A stretch of DNA of 64,000 nucleotides from Deltaproteobacteria bacterium HGW-Deltaproteobacteria-6 (GTDB lineage: Bacteria; Desulfobacterota; Syntrophia; Syntrophales; Smithellaceae): the NCBI GenBank assembly GCA_002840435.1, contig PHAT01000004.1, positions 62,001-126,000 on the forward strand, read 5' to 3'. The position numbers and the translations under genes were made by a program. The notes under the pieces are model-generated. The model made no database searches. It saw only the letters and a program-made list of their open reading frames with translations, and was not told the DNA's origin. Below are positions 24,481 to 64,000 of this stretch, piece by piece (within the stretch, counting starts at the first letter, position 1; every line of letters begins with the position of its first letter).

Positions 24481-24545
24481 AAGGCATTCCTTAATCACTA
24501 TGATGACTTTGAAAAGATCTCTTCTTGGTCATTCCGGTTCTGAGT

Positions 24546-24730
24546 CCCCCTTTGGAAAAGGGGGATTTGAGGGGGATTTTCTTCTCTTAAAATCCTCCCT
24601 AACCCTCCTTTAGAAAAGGAGGGAACACAGGCTATCGCCCGATCCTCCCTAACCCTCCTTTATACCCTGACTATCGTCCGATCCTACCTACCCCCTTTAT
24701 GCACAGAAGGGCACAAGTGAAAGGAGGGGA
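24546..24730. repeat. Composite palindromic repeat R1 (inverted partner of R2)
   Basis: This block is built of short palindromes such as ccccctttggaaaaggggg and ccctcctttagaaaaggaggg, joined by ctatcgcccgatcctccct. Read on the opposite strand it matches 26596-26826 nearly throughout, including the linker gattttcttctcttaaaatc. R1 is somewhat decayed at its inner end, where the second palindrome is damaged (cctaccccctttatgcacag). No open frame. It abuts the 3' end of the MoaE-like gene. Confidence 0.85.
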
Positions 24731-26436: not shown

Positions 26437-26595
26437 ATTTCAGCAGCACCTTTCATCGGATGGGCGTTTATTATCACGCCCGGCGATTACGCTCAAGATT
26501 TTTTGCAGGGGAGTATGAAATCGTGTATAGGTAAGATATGGATAGCAGCAGCAACCTAAGTAAGTCAGGGTGACTTCTGATATCAGTGATCTCAT

Positions 26596-26826
26596 CCCTC
26601 CTTTTACTTGTGCCCTTCAGGGTACAAAGGAGGGTTAGGGAGGATCAGGCGATAGCCTGTGTTCCCTCCTTTTACTTGTGCCCTTCAGGGTATAAAGGAG
26701 GGTTAGGGAGGATCGGGCGATAGCCTGTGTTCCCTCCTTTTACTTGTGTTCCCTCCTTTTCTAAAGGAGGGTTAGGGAGGATTTTAAGAGAAGAAAATCC
26801 CCTCAATCCCCCTTTGCCAAGGGGGA
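26596..26826. repeat. Composite palindromic repeat R2 with internal 68-bp tandem units
   Basis: Palindrome-rich block starting with exact 68-bp tandem units (ccctcc occurrences at 26596, 26664 and 26732). Each unit carries ccctccttttacttgtgccc, an inner hairpin and the linker gggcgatagcctgtgttc. After a partial third unit come ctaaaggagggttagggagg, the attttaagagaagaaaatc linker and a final cccccttt/aaggggg palindrome. The whole is the reverse complement of R1, with more copies of the inner unit. It ends about 28 bp before the next gene. Confidence 0.88.
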
Positions 26827-31202: not shown

Positions 31203-32369
31203 ATGAAAAAATCAGTTGTTTTAATTATTCTTCTGGTGATTTTCTCTCTGGGTGTTTGCGGTTGTGGCAAAGAAGATTCTTCCCAGATTAAAGTCGGCAT
31301 CATTGCTGAACTGACCGGCGATATTCCGGCCGTGGGCGCCTCCTGCAAAAACGCGGCGGAAATGGCCGCGGCGGAAGTCAACGACGCGGGCGGCATTCAG
31401 CTGGGCGACAAAAAATATAAAATCAAATTAATCATCGAAGATAATGCCGGAAAGGCCGATCAATCAGCGTCCTCCGCGCAGAAGCTGATTACGCAAAATA
31501 AAGTTCTCGCCATCATCGGCCCCAATGCCAGCCGCTACGCGCTGCCTGCCGCGGAAATCGCTGAAACCGGCAAAGTGGTTTTAATCACCCCCTGGTCCAC
31601 CGCGCCGAAAGCCACGCTTTCTTCCAAAACCAACGCCTCTAAAAAATATGTTTTTCGGGCCTGCTTTATCGATCCGTTCCAGGGAGGGGTCCTGGCTAAA
31701 TTCACACTGGACAATCTGAAGCTGAAGAAAGCAGCGGTCCTTTATGACGTGGCTTCCGAATACAACAAGGGCATCGCCGAAATCTTCAAGGATGTTTATG
31801 AGAAAAACGGCGGAAAGGTTGTCGCGTTTGAAACCTACACAACCAATGACAAGGACTTTTCATCGCAGCTCACGAAGATCAAAAAGGCCGGACCGGACAT
31901 TATCTTCCTGCCCAACTATTACAGCGAAGTGCCGCTGCAGATCCAGCAGGCCAAGCGACTGGGCATCACCGTCCCGTTTATCGGCGCCGATGCCTGGGGA
32001 AGCTCGGAGCTGATCAAACTTTGCGGCGCTGACTGCAACGATTATTATTTCAGCACGCATTATGCCGCCGACGCCGCAACGGAGACCACCAAAAAATTCA
32101 TTGCGAACTACAAGGCCAAATACAATTCCACACCCGATGACGTAGCCGCGCTGACCTACGATTCATTCGGCCTTTTGCTGCAGGCACTCAAAACCGCAGG
32201 AAAGAACGACCGTCAGGCCGTCCGCGACGCGCTGGCTAAAATCCCGCAGTATGAGGGCGTGACGGGCAACATGCAGTTTAAGGAAGGCTCCGGCGACCCG
32301 ATCAAAAGCGCCGTTATTTTAAAAATTAAAGATGGGAAGTTTACGTGGTTTGCCAACGCCAAACCCTGA
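31203..32369 (+). CDS. Branched-chain amino-acid ABC transporter substrate-binding lipoprotein (LivJ/LivK type)
   Basis: A 388-residue periplasmic-binding-protein type I component. The signal peptide ends at Cys21 (VCGC). The mature protein begins QIKVGIIAELTGDIPAVGASCKNAAEMAAAEVNDAGG, the Leu/Ile/Val-binding protein pattern, with IIGPNASRYALPAAEI and a C-terminal LTYDSFGLLLQALK. It should feed the LivHMGF components downstream, from which it is separated by about 750 bp of repeats and a DUF559 gene. The ATG at 31203 has AAGGAGACGGTTC before it; an upstream in-frame TTG overlaps the -35 box and can be excluded. Confidence 0.93.
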   Translation: MKKSVVLIILLVIFSLGVCGCGKEDSSQIKVGIIAELTGDIPAVGASCKNAAEMAAAEVNDAGGIQLGDKKYKIKLIIEDNAGKADQSASSAQKLITQNKVLAIIGPNASRYALPAAEIAETGKVVLITPWSTAPKATLSSKTNASKKYVFRACFIDPFQGGVLAKFTLDNLKLKKAAVLYDVASEYNKGIAEIFKDVYEKNGGKVVAFETYTTNDKDFSSQLTKIKKAGPDIIFLPNYYSEVPLQIQQAKRLGITVPFIGADAWGSSELIKLCGADCNDYYFSTHYAADAATETTKKFIANYKAKYNSTPDDVAALTYDSFGLLLQALKTAGKNDRQAVRDALAKIPQYEGVTGNMQFKEGSGDPIKSAVILKIKDGKFTWFANAKP

Positions 32370-32370
32370 C

Positions 32371-32489
32371 GGCTCGATAAAATATCCCATATACTGCGTT
32401 GCACTTCGTTGCTCGTCACTGCGACGTACATAAAGTACGTCTCATTCCTCGCAACTCGTGCGCCTTGTCTCTGGGCATTTTATCAAGCC
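32371..32489. repeat. 119-bp palindromic element with terminal inverted repeats (MITE/REP-like)
   Basis: The ends are imperfect inverted repeats: ggctcgataaaatatccca at 32371-32389 against tgggcattttatcaagcc at 32472-32489. The interior folds around gacgtac ataaa gtacgtc with flanking gcgttgcacttcgttgctcg and cctcgcaactcgtgcgcc arms. It starts 2 bp after the stop of the binding-protein gene. It has no open frame. It may act as a transcription or mRNA-processing signal or be a miniature mobile element. Confidence 0.7.
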
Positions 32490-32569
32490 ATCTTAAAGTT
32501 GTCGTTCCCGCAAATAGCCTGAAGTGCCACAAGCAAAAGAAGGGGAATGCAGTGGAACAGGTTTCATGT

Positions 32570-32713
32570 TTTTCTTCCCCCTTTACTAAAGGGGGATTTG
32601 ATTCTTTACAAAGCCACCCCAACCCTCTTTTAGCAAAGGAGGGAACAATGAGGGAGGATTTGAGCGGAGCTCAAGATAGCCCCCTTTTCTAAAGGGGGAT
32701 TTAGGGGGATTTA
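32570..32713. repeat. Palindromic repeat block R3 upstream of the DUF559 gene
   Basis: Contains ccccctttactaaaggggg, then ccaccccaaccctcttttag...aaaggaggga (32614-32648) and cccccttttctaaaggggg. These are the same palindrome types as in R1 and R2. The last element, tttagggggattta, directly precedes the DUF559 ATG and appears to serve as its ribosome site. The 35-bp element at 32614-32648 recurs as R4 with about four differences. Confidence 0.8.
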
Positions 32714-33082
32714 ATGCTGCCCTTCAACAGAAAACTTAAACCGCTGGCCCGGAATTTAAGAACCAACCTGACCGATGCTGAACTGCTTATCTGGTCAAAG
32801 ATCAGAAGGAAGCAGATCAAAGATGTACAATTCTACCGGCAGAAAAACATTGGCAATTACATCGTGGATTTCTATTGCCCAAAAGGAAAGCTCATTATAG
32901 AAGTAGACGGCGGACAGCATTATGAAACAGAGGGCATGAAAAAAGATCAGGAGCGTGATCAATACCTTCAAGGACTCGGATTATCCGTACTGCGCTTTTC
33001 CGACATTGACGTGCTTAAAAACATTGACGGGGTCATTGAAAGAATTCATGAACATTTAAAATCCACCCCAACCCTCCTTTAA
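32714..33082 (+). CDS. DUF559 (Vsr-like) endonuclease-fold protein
   Basis: A 122-residue protein of the DUF559 family, restriction-endonuclease-like and related to the very-short-patch repair nuclease. It shows ARNLRTNLTDAELLIWSKIRR, FYRQKNIGNYIVDFYCPKGKLIIEVDGGQH (the D...ExD metal motif) and DQYLQGLGLSVLRFSD. Cellular role and substrate are unknown. It is inserted between the binding-protein gene and livH of one ABC operon. Its ribosome site derives from repeat R3, and its last codons (STPTLL) and stop lie in repeat R4, so gene and repeats look like one unit. Confidence 0.88.
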   Translation: MLPFNRKLKPLARNLRTNLTDAELLIWSKIRRKQIKDVQFYRQKNIGNYIVDFYCPKGKLIIEVDGGQHYETEGMKKDQERDQYLQGLGLSVLRFSDIDVLKNIDGVIERIHEHLKSTPTLL

Positions 33083-33097
33083 GAAAGGAGGGAGCAA
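33063..33097. repeat. Palindromic repeat R4 at the 3' end of the DUF559 gene
   Basis: A 35-bp element with ccctccttt and aaaggaggg arms. It is a direct copy of 32614-32648, differing at about four positions. It supplies the last six codons and the stop of the DUF559 gene and lies 25 bp before livH, leaving livH with only a weak, distant AAGGAAG ribosome site. Confidence 0.8.
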
Positions 33098-33121
33098 TAA
33101 GGAAGTTATTTTCACGAATAT

Positions 33122-33997
33122 ATGGCTTATATTTTTCAACAGATTCTTAATGCCCTGCAGCTGGGGAGCATCTATGCGCTGATTGCGCTGGGCTACACCA
33201 TGGTCTATGGCATTCTGACCATGATCAACTTCGCCCACGGCGATCTGTTCATGGTCGGCGCTTTCTTCTGCTTTATTATTGCCGTCTATCTCCATCTGTC
33301 CTTTGTCCCGACGCTGCTTTTATCCATGCTGGGGGTGGCCTTCCTGGGTGTGGTCATTGAGCGCTTCGCCTACAAACCGCTGCGCAACGCTCCGCGTGTT
33401 TCCGCCATTATCACCGCTCTGGGCGTCGGCCTCTTTCTGGAAAACTTCACACTGGCGCTTTCGCCCTATCCCAAACATATTCCGCCGCTCCTCGAAAACG
33501 TCACCTGGACGGTCGGCTCACTTTCCCTTTCTTCCCTGCAGATTATCGTCATTGTCCTATCGCTTTGCCTGATGCTGATTCTGGATTTTGTCGTGCAGCA
33601 CACCAAAGCAGGCATGGCCATGCGCGCCATTTCATGGGACAAGACCATTGTCCCGCTGATGGGCGTGCCGGTCAATAAAATCATCTCGCTGACCTTTGCC
33701 ATCGGCACGGGTTTGGGCGGCGCGGCAGGCGTCATGTATGGACTGGCCTATCCGGTAATTGATCCCTACATGGGCATCATGGTCGGCTGGAAAGCGTTTA
33801 TCTGCGCCGTTGTGGGCGGTATCGGCAATATCCGCGGCGCCATGATCGGCGGCTTTATTCTGGGCGGTGTGGAAATCATGGTCGCCGCATTCTTCCCCTC
33901 CACCTACCGCGACTTTGTGGCCTTTACGCTGCTGCTTATTCTGTTGATTGTCAGGCCCTACGGCATTCTGGGCAAGCCCCATCCGCAAAAGGTATAA
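33122..33997 (+). CDS. livH: Branched-chain amino-acid ABC permease LivH
   Basis: A 291-residue inner-membrane permease with about eight hydrophobic segments. LQLGSIYALIALGYTMVYGILTMINFAHGD at the start is the LivH hallmark, and the C-terminal part has FICAVVGGIGNIRGAMIGGF. It pairs with LivM to form the channel. The ribosome site before its ATG is weak, probably because repeat R4 occupies the expected position. Confidence 0.94.
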   Translation: MAYIFQQILNALQLGSIYALIALGYTMVYGILTMINFAHGDLFMVGAFFCFIIAVYLHLSFVPTLLLSMLGVAFLGVVIERFAYKPLRNAPRVSAIITALGVGLFLENFTLALSPYPKHIPPLLENVTWTVGSLSLSSLQIIVIVLSLCLMLILDFVVQHTKAGMAMRAISWDKTIVPLMGVPVNKIISLTFAIGTGLGGAAGVMYGLAYPVIDPYMGIMVGWKAFICAVVGGIGNIRGAMIGGFILGGVEIMVAAFFPSTYRDFVAFTLLLILLIVRPYGILGKPHPQKV

Positions 33998-62238: not shown

Positions 62239-64000
62239 ATGATAAAGAAAATTTCATTAAAAATTTGCATTGTGATGTTGGTCGTCGGCGCCTTCAGTGT
62301 TGCCTATGGTTTGAGTTCCTACCTGACATCTTTCAACGCCACCTATGGGACTTCGGGTACGGCTCTTAGCACGTGCTCATTATGTCATCCGGGCGGTGAT
62401 ACGTCGCAGTTCAACCCCTATGGGCTGGATTACGCGAACGCTGGCAGTTTTGCGGCTATTGAATCCCTCGACTCGGATGGCGACGGATTCACGAACATCG
62501 ATGAGATCAGGGCCGGAACCTTTCCCGGGGATGCCACAAGCCATCCTACCGCTGCTGACACAACCCGCCCGGTTGTTTCGGCATTTGTTATTCCGGCAAG
62601 CGCAAGTTCACTGGTCATTTCCGTTACAACTTTTACCGCCACAGATAATGTTGCCGTGACGGGTTATCTGCTCACGGAGACATCGGCAACGCCATTGGCC
62701 TCGGCTGCGGGATGGACCGCCACAGCCCTGGCAAGCTACACGTTCAGCTCGGCGGGAAACAAAACCCTTTATGCCTGGGCAAAGGATGGCACGGGTAACA
62801 TTTCTGCGCCTTTAAGCAGAACGACGTCCATCACACTGCCTGATACGACAGCCCCGGTGATTACCGGATTTACCATCCCGGCAAGCAGCAGTTCCACCAC
62901 CGTTTCCATTACGACGTTTACCGCTACAGACAATGTCGGTGTCACAGGCTATCTGATCACCGAAACCGCAACTACCCCCTTAGCCTCGGCTGTGGGATGG
63001 TCCGCGACGGCACCGGCAAGCTATACGGTCAGCTCTGCTGGTAACAAGACCCTTTACGCCTGGACGAAAGACGCGGCAGGGAATATCTCGGTGCCCATAA
63101 GCAGAACGACGGCAATCACCCTTCCCGATACGAGCGCTCCCGTGATTACAGGCTTTGCTATCCCGGCAACCTCGACATCCCTTGCCGTTGGAATCACATC
63201 ATTTACCGCCACGGATAATACCGGCGTGACGGGCTATCTGATCAAGGAGACCTCTGCGACGCCTTTGGCTCAGGCGACGGGATGGACCACTCAGGCTCCC
63301 ACAGGGTATACGTTCAGCTCTGCGGGCAGCAAAACCCTTTATGCCTGGGCAAAAGATGGAGCTGGTAATATCTCCGCACCTATGAGCGCGATGATAACCA
63401 TCACGCTGCCCGATGCGGCACCGCCTGTTGTCGGAAGCTTTGCCATACCTTCAAGTTCCGGCTCGCTGACGGTGTCCATTTCTGCTTTTACCGCAACCGA
63501 CAATGTGGGTGTCACGGGCTATCTTGTCAAAGAGACTTCGACCATTCCTTTGGCCTCAGCGACGGGATGGAGCGCAACACCGCCGGCAAGCTACACGTTC
63601 GGTTCGGCGGGCTCCAAGGTTCTCTATGCCTGGGCGAAGGACGCCGCAGGCAATGTCTCCGTACCACTGAGCGCCATAACGAGCATTACTCTTCCTGATA
63701 CGGTTCCGCCTTCTGTAACGGGGTTTGTCATTCCGTCAAATTCAAACACGCTGACGATCCCGATTACAACCTTCACGGCAACCGACAACATGGGTGTTAC
63801 AGGCTATCTGGTGACGGAAGTCTCCACGGCACCTTTGGCCTCGGCTGCTGGATGGACCGCCACGGCACCGTCGGGTTATACCTTCAGTTCAGTGGGTTCC
63901 AAGGTCCTCTATGCCTGGGCAAAAGATGGGGCGGGCAATATCTCCACATCCTTCAGCGCATCGACAACCGTAGCCGTTTCCGACGCCACGCCGCCGGTGA
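62239..64000 (+). CDS. Exported CxxCH protein with EF-hand-like motif and 95-residue tandem repeats (3' end outside window)
   Basis: At least 587 codons, open to the window end. The ATG follows CAGGAGATTG. A signal peptide (MIKKISLKICIVMLVVGAFS) leads to a single heme-type CSLCH motif at about residues 49-53. A Ca-binding-like DSDGDGFTNIDEIRAG follows. From codon ~112 come tandem Ig-like repeats, with signature TFTATDNVGVTGYL and LYAWAKDGAGNIS. Equivalent codons recur at 62572, 62857, 63142, 63427 and 63712, a spacing of exactly 285 bp (95 codons), with a further one at 63997. Likely a surface or periplasmic adhesin-like or c-type cytochrome-related protein. Confidence 0.85.
   Translation, partial: MIKKISLKICIVMLVVGAFSVAYGLSSYLTSFNATYGTSGTALSTCSLCHPGGDTSQFNPYGLDYANAGSFAAIESLDSDGDGFTNIDEIRAGTFPGDATSHPTAADTTRPVVSAFVIPASASSLVISVTTFTATDNVAVTGYLLTETSATPLASAAGWTATALASYTFSSAGNKTLYAWAKDGTGNISAPLSRTTSITLPDTTAPVITGFTIPASSSSTTVSITTFTATDNVGVTGYLITETATTPLASAVGWSATAPASYTVSSAGNKTLYAWTKDAAGNISVPISRTTAITLPDTSAPVITGFAIPATSTSLAVGITSFTATDNTGVTGYLIKETSATPLAQATGWTTQAPTGYTFSSAGSKTLYAWAKDGAGNISAPMSAMITITLPDAAPPVVGSFAIPSSSGSLTVSISAFTATDNVGVTGYLVKETSTIPLASATGWSATPPASYTFGSAGSKVLYAWAKDAAGNVSVPLSAITSITLPDTVPPSVTGFVIPSNSNTLTIPITTFTATDNMGVTGYLVTEVSTAPLASAAGWTATAPSGYTFSSVGSKVLYAWAKDGAGNISTSFSASTTVAVSDATPPV
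62572..63996 (+). repeat. Five in-frame 285-bp tandem repeats
   Basis: Repeat units start near 62572, 62857, 63142, 63427 and 63712, all exactly 285 bp apart, with the next at 63997. Each unit codes for a 95-residue Ig-like module. Nucleotide similarity between units is visible throughout, notably in ctttatgcctgggc and the accgccac/acagataatgt segments. The unit number beyond the window end is unknown. Confidence 0.9.

Follow-up and report, generated by a model that had tools for sequence, protein, structure and literature searches.

A DUF559 nuclease gene framed by inverted palindromic repeats in a liv operon is a candidate minimal mobile unit

In a genome of the Smithellaceae (Deltaproteobacteria bacterium HGW-Deltaproteobacteria-6), a gene for a small DUF559 nuclease sits between two inverted palindromic repeats (REPs) in the gap between livK and livH. 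It was originally predicted from a 64,000-nucleotide stretch of this genome, referred to here as the window, that the gene is built into a repeat pair, and this is confirmed: sequence, repeats and open reading frames agree. REP, nuclease gene and REP (32680-33092) probably constitute a minimal mobile unit. Its nuclease would act at the unit's own palindromes, and gene-free pairs of the same repeats (REPINs) would depend on it. The analysis covers the architecture of the unit, its association with repeats, the boundaries of the block that its copies share, its presence and absence at comparable sites, the match of REP type and nuclease type, the fold of the enzyme and the selection on the protein; cleavage of REPs, movement and mobilization of gene-free copies in trans are inferred. 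The features are compiled in Table 1.

Table 1. Features of the livK-livH gap and related repeats, in positions of the window
Feature	Position	Strand	Remarks
R1, cluster of the unit's palindromes, without DUF559	24545..24730	+	
R2, inverted copy of R1, without DUF559	26595..26822	-	58-bp and 57-bp stretches 100% complementary
livK-type ABC substrate-binding protein	31203..32369	+	likely ATG start; ORF open from 31137
Repeat of another family, unrelated to the REPs, in the livK-livH gap	32373..32495 (approx.)		
Gene-free REPIN-like pair, complete	32576..32643	+	palindrome CCCCCTTTACTAAAGGGGG and its tail, a spacer, then inverted tail and palindrome
Left REP of the DUF559 unit	32680..32712	+	palindrome + tail TTTAGGGGGATTT
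DUF559 (Vsr/EDxHD-fold) nuclease gene, 122 aa	32714..33082	+	Pfam E 1.4e-34
Right REP of the DUF559 unit	33059..33092	+	inverted tail AAATCCACCCCAA + palindrome CCCTCCTTTAAGAAAGGAGGG
livH, first permease gene 3' of the insertion	33122..33997	+	liv genes run on to 36516

The gap holds, in this order, the repeat of the other family, the gene-free REPIN-like pair and the REP-DUF559-REP unit. That the unit interrupts the liv operon between the binding-protein gene and livH is borne out by the list of open reading frames and by the orthologous junctions of relatives; in eight of these the livK orthologue ends with ...FTWFANAKP and livH follows directly. Sequence resembling the first repeat was found in the livK-livH gap of four genomes (G143, G142, G128, G123), and the architecture of the gene-free pair recurs at other positions of the genome. 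In the unit, the DUF559 gene takes the place of the spacer of a REPIN-like inverted pair, between the two REP arms. The left arm consists of the palindrome CCCCCTTTTCTAAAGGGGG followed by ATTTAGGGGGATTT, and the tail contains the Shine-Dalgarno-like AGGGGGA (around 32703-32709), 4-5 nt before the ATG; the ribosome site of the gene comes from the repeat, as predicted, and its last codons (STPTLL) and TAA stop (33080-33082) lie inside the downstream repeat. The latter had been described as a 35-bp direct copy of 32614-32648; it is a direct copy but a longer one, with 85% identity over 47 bp (32610-32656 versus 33059-33105). The proposed displacement of the ribosome site of livH holds in part: the repeat now sets AAGGAGGG about 30 nt 5' of livH, but the empty gap has only 6 bp and no obvious Shine-Dalgarno sequence, so that livH was probably translationally coupled before the insertion. 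The block shared with other genomes extends to the outer base of the left palindrome and stops at that of the right one.

The predicted association of DUF559 genes with repeats in related genomes turned out to be strong. The sample comprised 80 loci from many phyla, found by protein similarity alone, and 30 from the order; the 150 bp 5' of each gene were locally aligned with the reverse complement of the 150 bp 3' of it, and a score of at least 30 was counted. Inverted repeats surround 71 of 101 DUF559 genes, which represent more than 15 phyla, compared with 3 of 156 control ORFs at the same loci (p~5e-35), and GC-rich hairpins on both flanks were seen at 71/101 versus 7/156. Mismatched pairs of DUF559 flanks reach the score of 30 in 25% of cases, since related repeats are common to many loci. 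An independent phylum-wide draw gave inverted-repeat flanks at 16 of 27 DUF559 genes and at none of 11 controls. About 30% of the DUF559 loci are below the threshold, though many of them are flanked by a palindrome on one side or both, and partial and broken DUF559 copies are common. The repeats differ between groups (CCCCCTTT/GGGGGATT, CCCTCTCCC/GGGTGAGGG, CCCCTCC/GGGGTGGT, types of the Clostridia, others) and are nearly always composed of palindrome and tail.

In a survey of the order (149 genomes), 37 of the 46 genomes with a full-length DUF559 contain the palindrome, as do 34 of the 103 that lack one (p 1e-7, uncorrected for shared ancestry). At least two type-A palindromes are found in 18/20 genomes in which the DUF559 has arms of type A, compared with 11/26 in which it has arms of other types (p 0.0016, again uncorrected for ancestry); REP type follows DUF559 type. 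Repeats abundant in genomes lacking DUF559 had been named as speaking against the idea, and this is in part the case, 13 of the 103 DUF559-negative genomes having at least five palindromes; some of these have DUF559 fragments or weak matches. The finding weakens the idea and does not refute it, since there are also species that keep their REPs and have no RAYT genes (PMC3733652).

In an all-against-all comparison, copies at unrelated sites usually have one block of about 410-440 bp in common, which in many pairs ends no more than 2 bp from the outer palindrome bases; in one example it ends 41 and 40 bp past the domain, with the palindrome edges at 41 and 39 bp. Such defined inverted ends, common to copies at unrelated sites, are what is expected of MITEs and IS elements. 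One genome (G055) has two copies of the unit with 95.3% identity over 489 bp, and copies from separate families are 91% identical over 417 bp (G096 and G055) or 95% over 412 bp (G015 and G001). Purifying selection acts on the gene for the most part: dN/dS is 0.05-0.23 in most DUF559 pairs, with 0.42 and 0.80 in two nearly identical pairs. That the palindromes are merely regulatory hairpins or terminators around a domesticated gene, with the association due to shared ancestry, would suit ycjD, the DUF559 member of E. coli K-12, which, unlike units of the window type, is fixed at a single site between sapF and fabI in more than half of the genomes. The unit copies, two near-identical ones in one genome and others 91-95% identical across families, with unrelated neighbours and similarity that ends at the palindromes, already disfavour this explanation, and we regard it as very improbable. 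The presence and absence of ycjD was also considered as a clean empty site and rejected, as genomes without ycjD carry an efflux operon there; these genomes still keep many ycjD-type palindromes, which speaks against the mobile-unit reading.

Empty liv sites, whose existence in relatives had been predicted, were indeed found. Among 29 loci of the family with livH, eight genomes have only 6-9 bp between the livK stop and the livH start, including the closest relative (G124), in which the gap is 6 bp and LivH is 97% identical. DUF559 and REPs are present at the junction in three further genomes (G105, G014, G145), REPs alone in two (G111, G087), and some of the remaining junctions hold other repeats. 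The livK-livH junction thus qualifies as a repeat hot spot. The DUF559 nearest to the window protein (90%) is encoded in G145 at a site other than the liv junction, and the liv junction of that genome has a second DUF559, which makes independent arrivals likely. A second kind of site is hsdR of G124, which has the REP-DUF559-REP unit in frame; its homologue in G146, with a 91% identical protein, is without the insert. In the liv, trpB-trpA and hsdR comparisons, each site has several repeats or a variable linker, and no clean junction or target-site duplication was seen.

These sites bear on a homing scenario, in which older REPs were spread by other means and the DUF559 nuclease cuts between REP arms, the gene being copied in by repair through short REP homology. 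Two kinds of evidence speak for it: the REP-only states of the liv site (L153, L160), and the enzyme itself, for which the best characterised structural match is I-Bth0305I, a homing endonuclease of the EDxHD type; homing nucleases are known with EDxHD and with GIY-YIG domains (PMC3943268), and both domains adjoin REPs here. In close relatives, however, the empty liv site (G124) and the empty hsdR site (G146) contain no REP at all, and spacer length differs among gene-free pairs, which argues against a single homing site. We consider homing unlikely. The REP-free empty sites make arrival of the complete unit more plausible than homing into a pre-existing REP; a two-step history fits them too.

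Further observations were made at these loci. The hsdR gene of G124 (type I restriction; L047) has two in-frame insertions, at 915-1197 and about 1401-1847, and the frame is still open; one is a GIY-YIG domain and the other the REP-DUF559-REP unit, with tails that point outwards. By comparison with the homologue (L291), the GIY-YIG insertion is joined almost exactly. At L030-L035 and L039 (e.g. G014:C19:73608), the frame of a DUF559 gene continues through its right REP into a radical-SAM gene, giving one open frame of about 490-510 aa. The trpB-trpA junction (L004/L261, L262) has a REPIN of the unit's family in the source genome (G000) and in G124; a short gap is all that L263 and L270, from two genus members, have there. 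Carriage of DUF559 units by phages was rejected, as only three phage records match.

In the source genome (4.09 Mb), two exact palindrome patterns match at roughly a dozen places and the reversed control patterns at none, so these palindromes are not due to chance. The places are mostly intergenic, some of them being full units of palindrome, tail, spacer, tail and palindrome, and only one has a DUF559 gene; the second DUF559 match of the genome is weak and without such repeats. Within the window, the palindrome family also occurs at R1 and R2 without a DUF559 gene, as predicted. R1 and R2 bracket three minus-strand genes, one of them exonuclease III-like, and being perfect inverted copies they could permit inversion of the enclosed segment. 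Some palindromes (26595-26735, 24665-24730; L011, L021, L026) have a smaller hairpin of the ACTTGTGCCCTTCAGGGTAT or ACCTGAAGGTGG type nested in the loop, as if another mini-repeat inserted into REP loops.

A transposase of the RAYT/IS200 or another type could be the mover of these REPINs, with DUF559 as a passenger kept for, e.g., mismatch repair or defence. Y1 transposases are indeed frequent in the order (106/149 genomes), and in a methyltransferase mutant of Caulobacter the DUF559 protein VsrA causes a DNA-damage response (PMC12907096), which shows that the family has consequences in vivo, in another setting. The source genome, however, has no Y1 transposase match (PF01797, E<=0.001), and a RAYT as mover in this genome was rejected on this ground. 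In addition, DUF559 is the sole gene of the unit over many phyla and with several REP sequences, and the REP type tracks the DUF559 type. A passenger role is quite improbable in our view, more so than homing.

The window protein matches DUF559 (PF04480), MTES_1575 and PvuRts1I-like_N only in the Pfam scan, and did not match the Vsr sequence family there. According to an AlphaFold model (pLDDT 91.5), its 122 residues form a single domain, and the model has the Vsr/EDxHD fold. The solved structure that matches it best is NGO0050 of Neisseria (3hrl), a DUF559 protein, followed by the catalytic domain of I-Bth0305I (3r3p; Foldseek E 1.2e-4, TM 0.74 by target); Vsr (1cw0) is a weaker match. E23, D52, E63, D65, H69 and D78 are invariant in 55 proteins and are candidates for the catalytic residues of an EDxHD enzyme such as I-Bth0305I. 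The gonococcal DUF559 gene at about 49.6 kb (L183), probably that of NGO0050, sits between similar repeats. YcjD was placed in the PD-(D/E)XK superfamily (PMC1189080).

The closest known arrangement is that of the REPIN/RAYT systems, or REPtrons (PMC3116915, PMC3733652). Both have a dispersed palindrome with a conserved tail, arranged in inverted pairs, a gene flanked by those repeats and mostly gene-free copies. The gene of the present unit, however, encodes a DUF559 nuclease with a predicted Vsr/EDxHD fold instead of a Y1 HUH transposase, and the tail is of the GGGGGATTT or GGGTGAGGG type instead of GTAG. The DUF559 unit works like a REPtron but, by transposase and tag, is not one. According to a survey from 2013, a dedicated transposase is lacking for CGTC-tagged REPs (PMC3733652). 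With EDxHD homing endonucleases such as I-Bth0305I (PMC3943268) the unit has the catalytic-domain fold in common, but it has neither a DNA-binding extension nor an intron, and its gene is nested in palindromic repeats. Vsr has a related fold and belongs to the PD-(D/E)XK superfamily as well (PMC1189080), but the DUF559 gene differs from it by the weaker structural match, the missing Pfam match and the repeat-flanked mobile context, and in the window its neighbours are liv genes and not a cytosine methyltransferase gene. MITEs and small IS elements likewise have inverted ends and gene-free derivatives in the same genome; the unit differs in its total size of about 420 bp, its hairpin ends, the absence of a visible target duplication and a gene that is not a known transposase. 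Similar to the unit, the CCCTCACCC...CTCTCCC repeats at ycjD of E. coli, possibly the BoxC family, consist of palindrome and tail beside a DUF559 gene and have many gene-free copies.

Based on these data, we favour a mobile unit that would consist of only two inverted REP arms (palindrome and GGGGGATTT-type tail) and one DUF559 nuclease gene. The nuclease would recognize and cut its own REP arms, allowing the block from palindrome to palindrome to be copied or moved to new sites. The arms in turn serve the gene, the left tail as ribosome site and the right arm as stop. Gene-free REPINs may be dependent derivatives of the ends of the unit, mobilized in trans, by analogy to MITEs with IS elements or REPs with RAYT. 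To our knowledge, a 122-aa nuclease without an extra domain has no route to rejoin DNA alone, and the movement would have to be completed by host repair. The original prediction, that a Vsr-like nuclease might mobilize the palindromes in parallel to RAYT-REP systems, is supported in part, by the association, the empty sites, the block shared between unrelated sites, the fold and the lack of a detectable RAYT; cleavage and movement would be the remaining steps. Within the open-access literature, no paper was found that links DUF559 to REPs.

Few repeats are as common in bacterial genomes as dispersed palindromes, most families of which have no known mover. Enzymes of the DUF559 type may be the missing movers of widespread palindromes without a known transposase. 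If they move families of the GGGGGATT and GGGTGAGG type, a concrete enzyme would be at hand for a question of long standing, and a testable one, since ycjD of E. coli K-12 is a DUF559 member; a protein of the family has already been crystallised (NGO0050). A family still labelled 'unknown function' would obtain a role, and the unit would be among the smallest self-contained mobile units known.

Early signs of a parallel come from GIY-YIG nuclease genes of the order (L306-L335), of which 9 out of 30 have inverted repeats around them that belong to other families (GTCATTGC..., TGTCATTTCGACC..., TGTCACCCTGAG...; example TGTCATTGCCCGGCTTGACCGGGCAATCCAG). Should this pattern hold, small nucleases that each have palindromes of their own may form a general class. 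With slightly less than even confidence, we propose that single-domain nucleases of the homing type, DUF559 and by these signs GIY-YIG, are dedicated partners of widespread bacterial palindromes with no known transposase, in type-matched minimal mobile units of about 420 bp that occur in many phyla. Relatives also have repeats of the GTCATTCC type, similar to the GIY-YIG flanks, in their liv gap without a gene. A 285-bp unit is repeated in tandem near the end of the window (62555-63979), with five copies in all; identity to the first copy is 65-73%, and the array probably encodes a repetitive protein domain.
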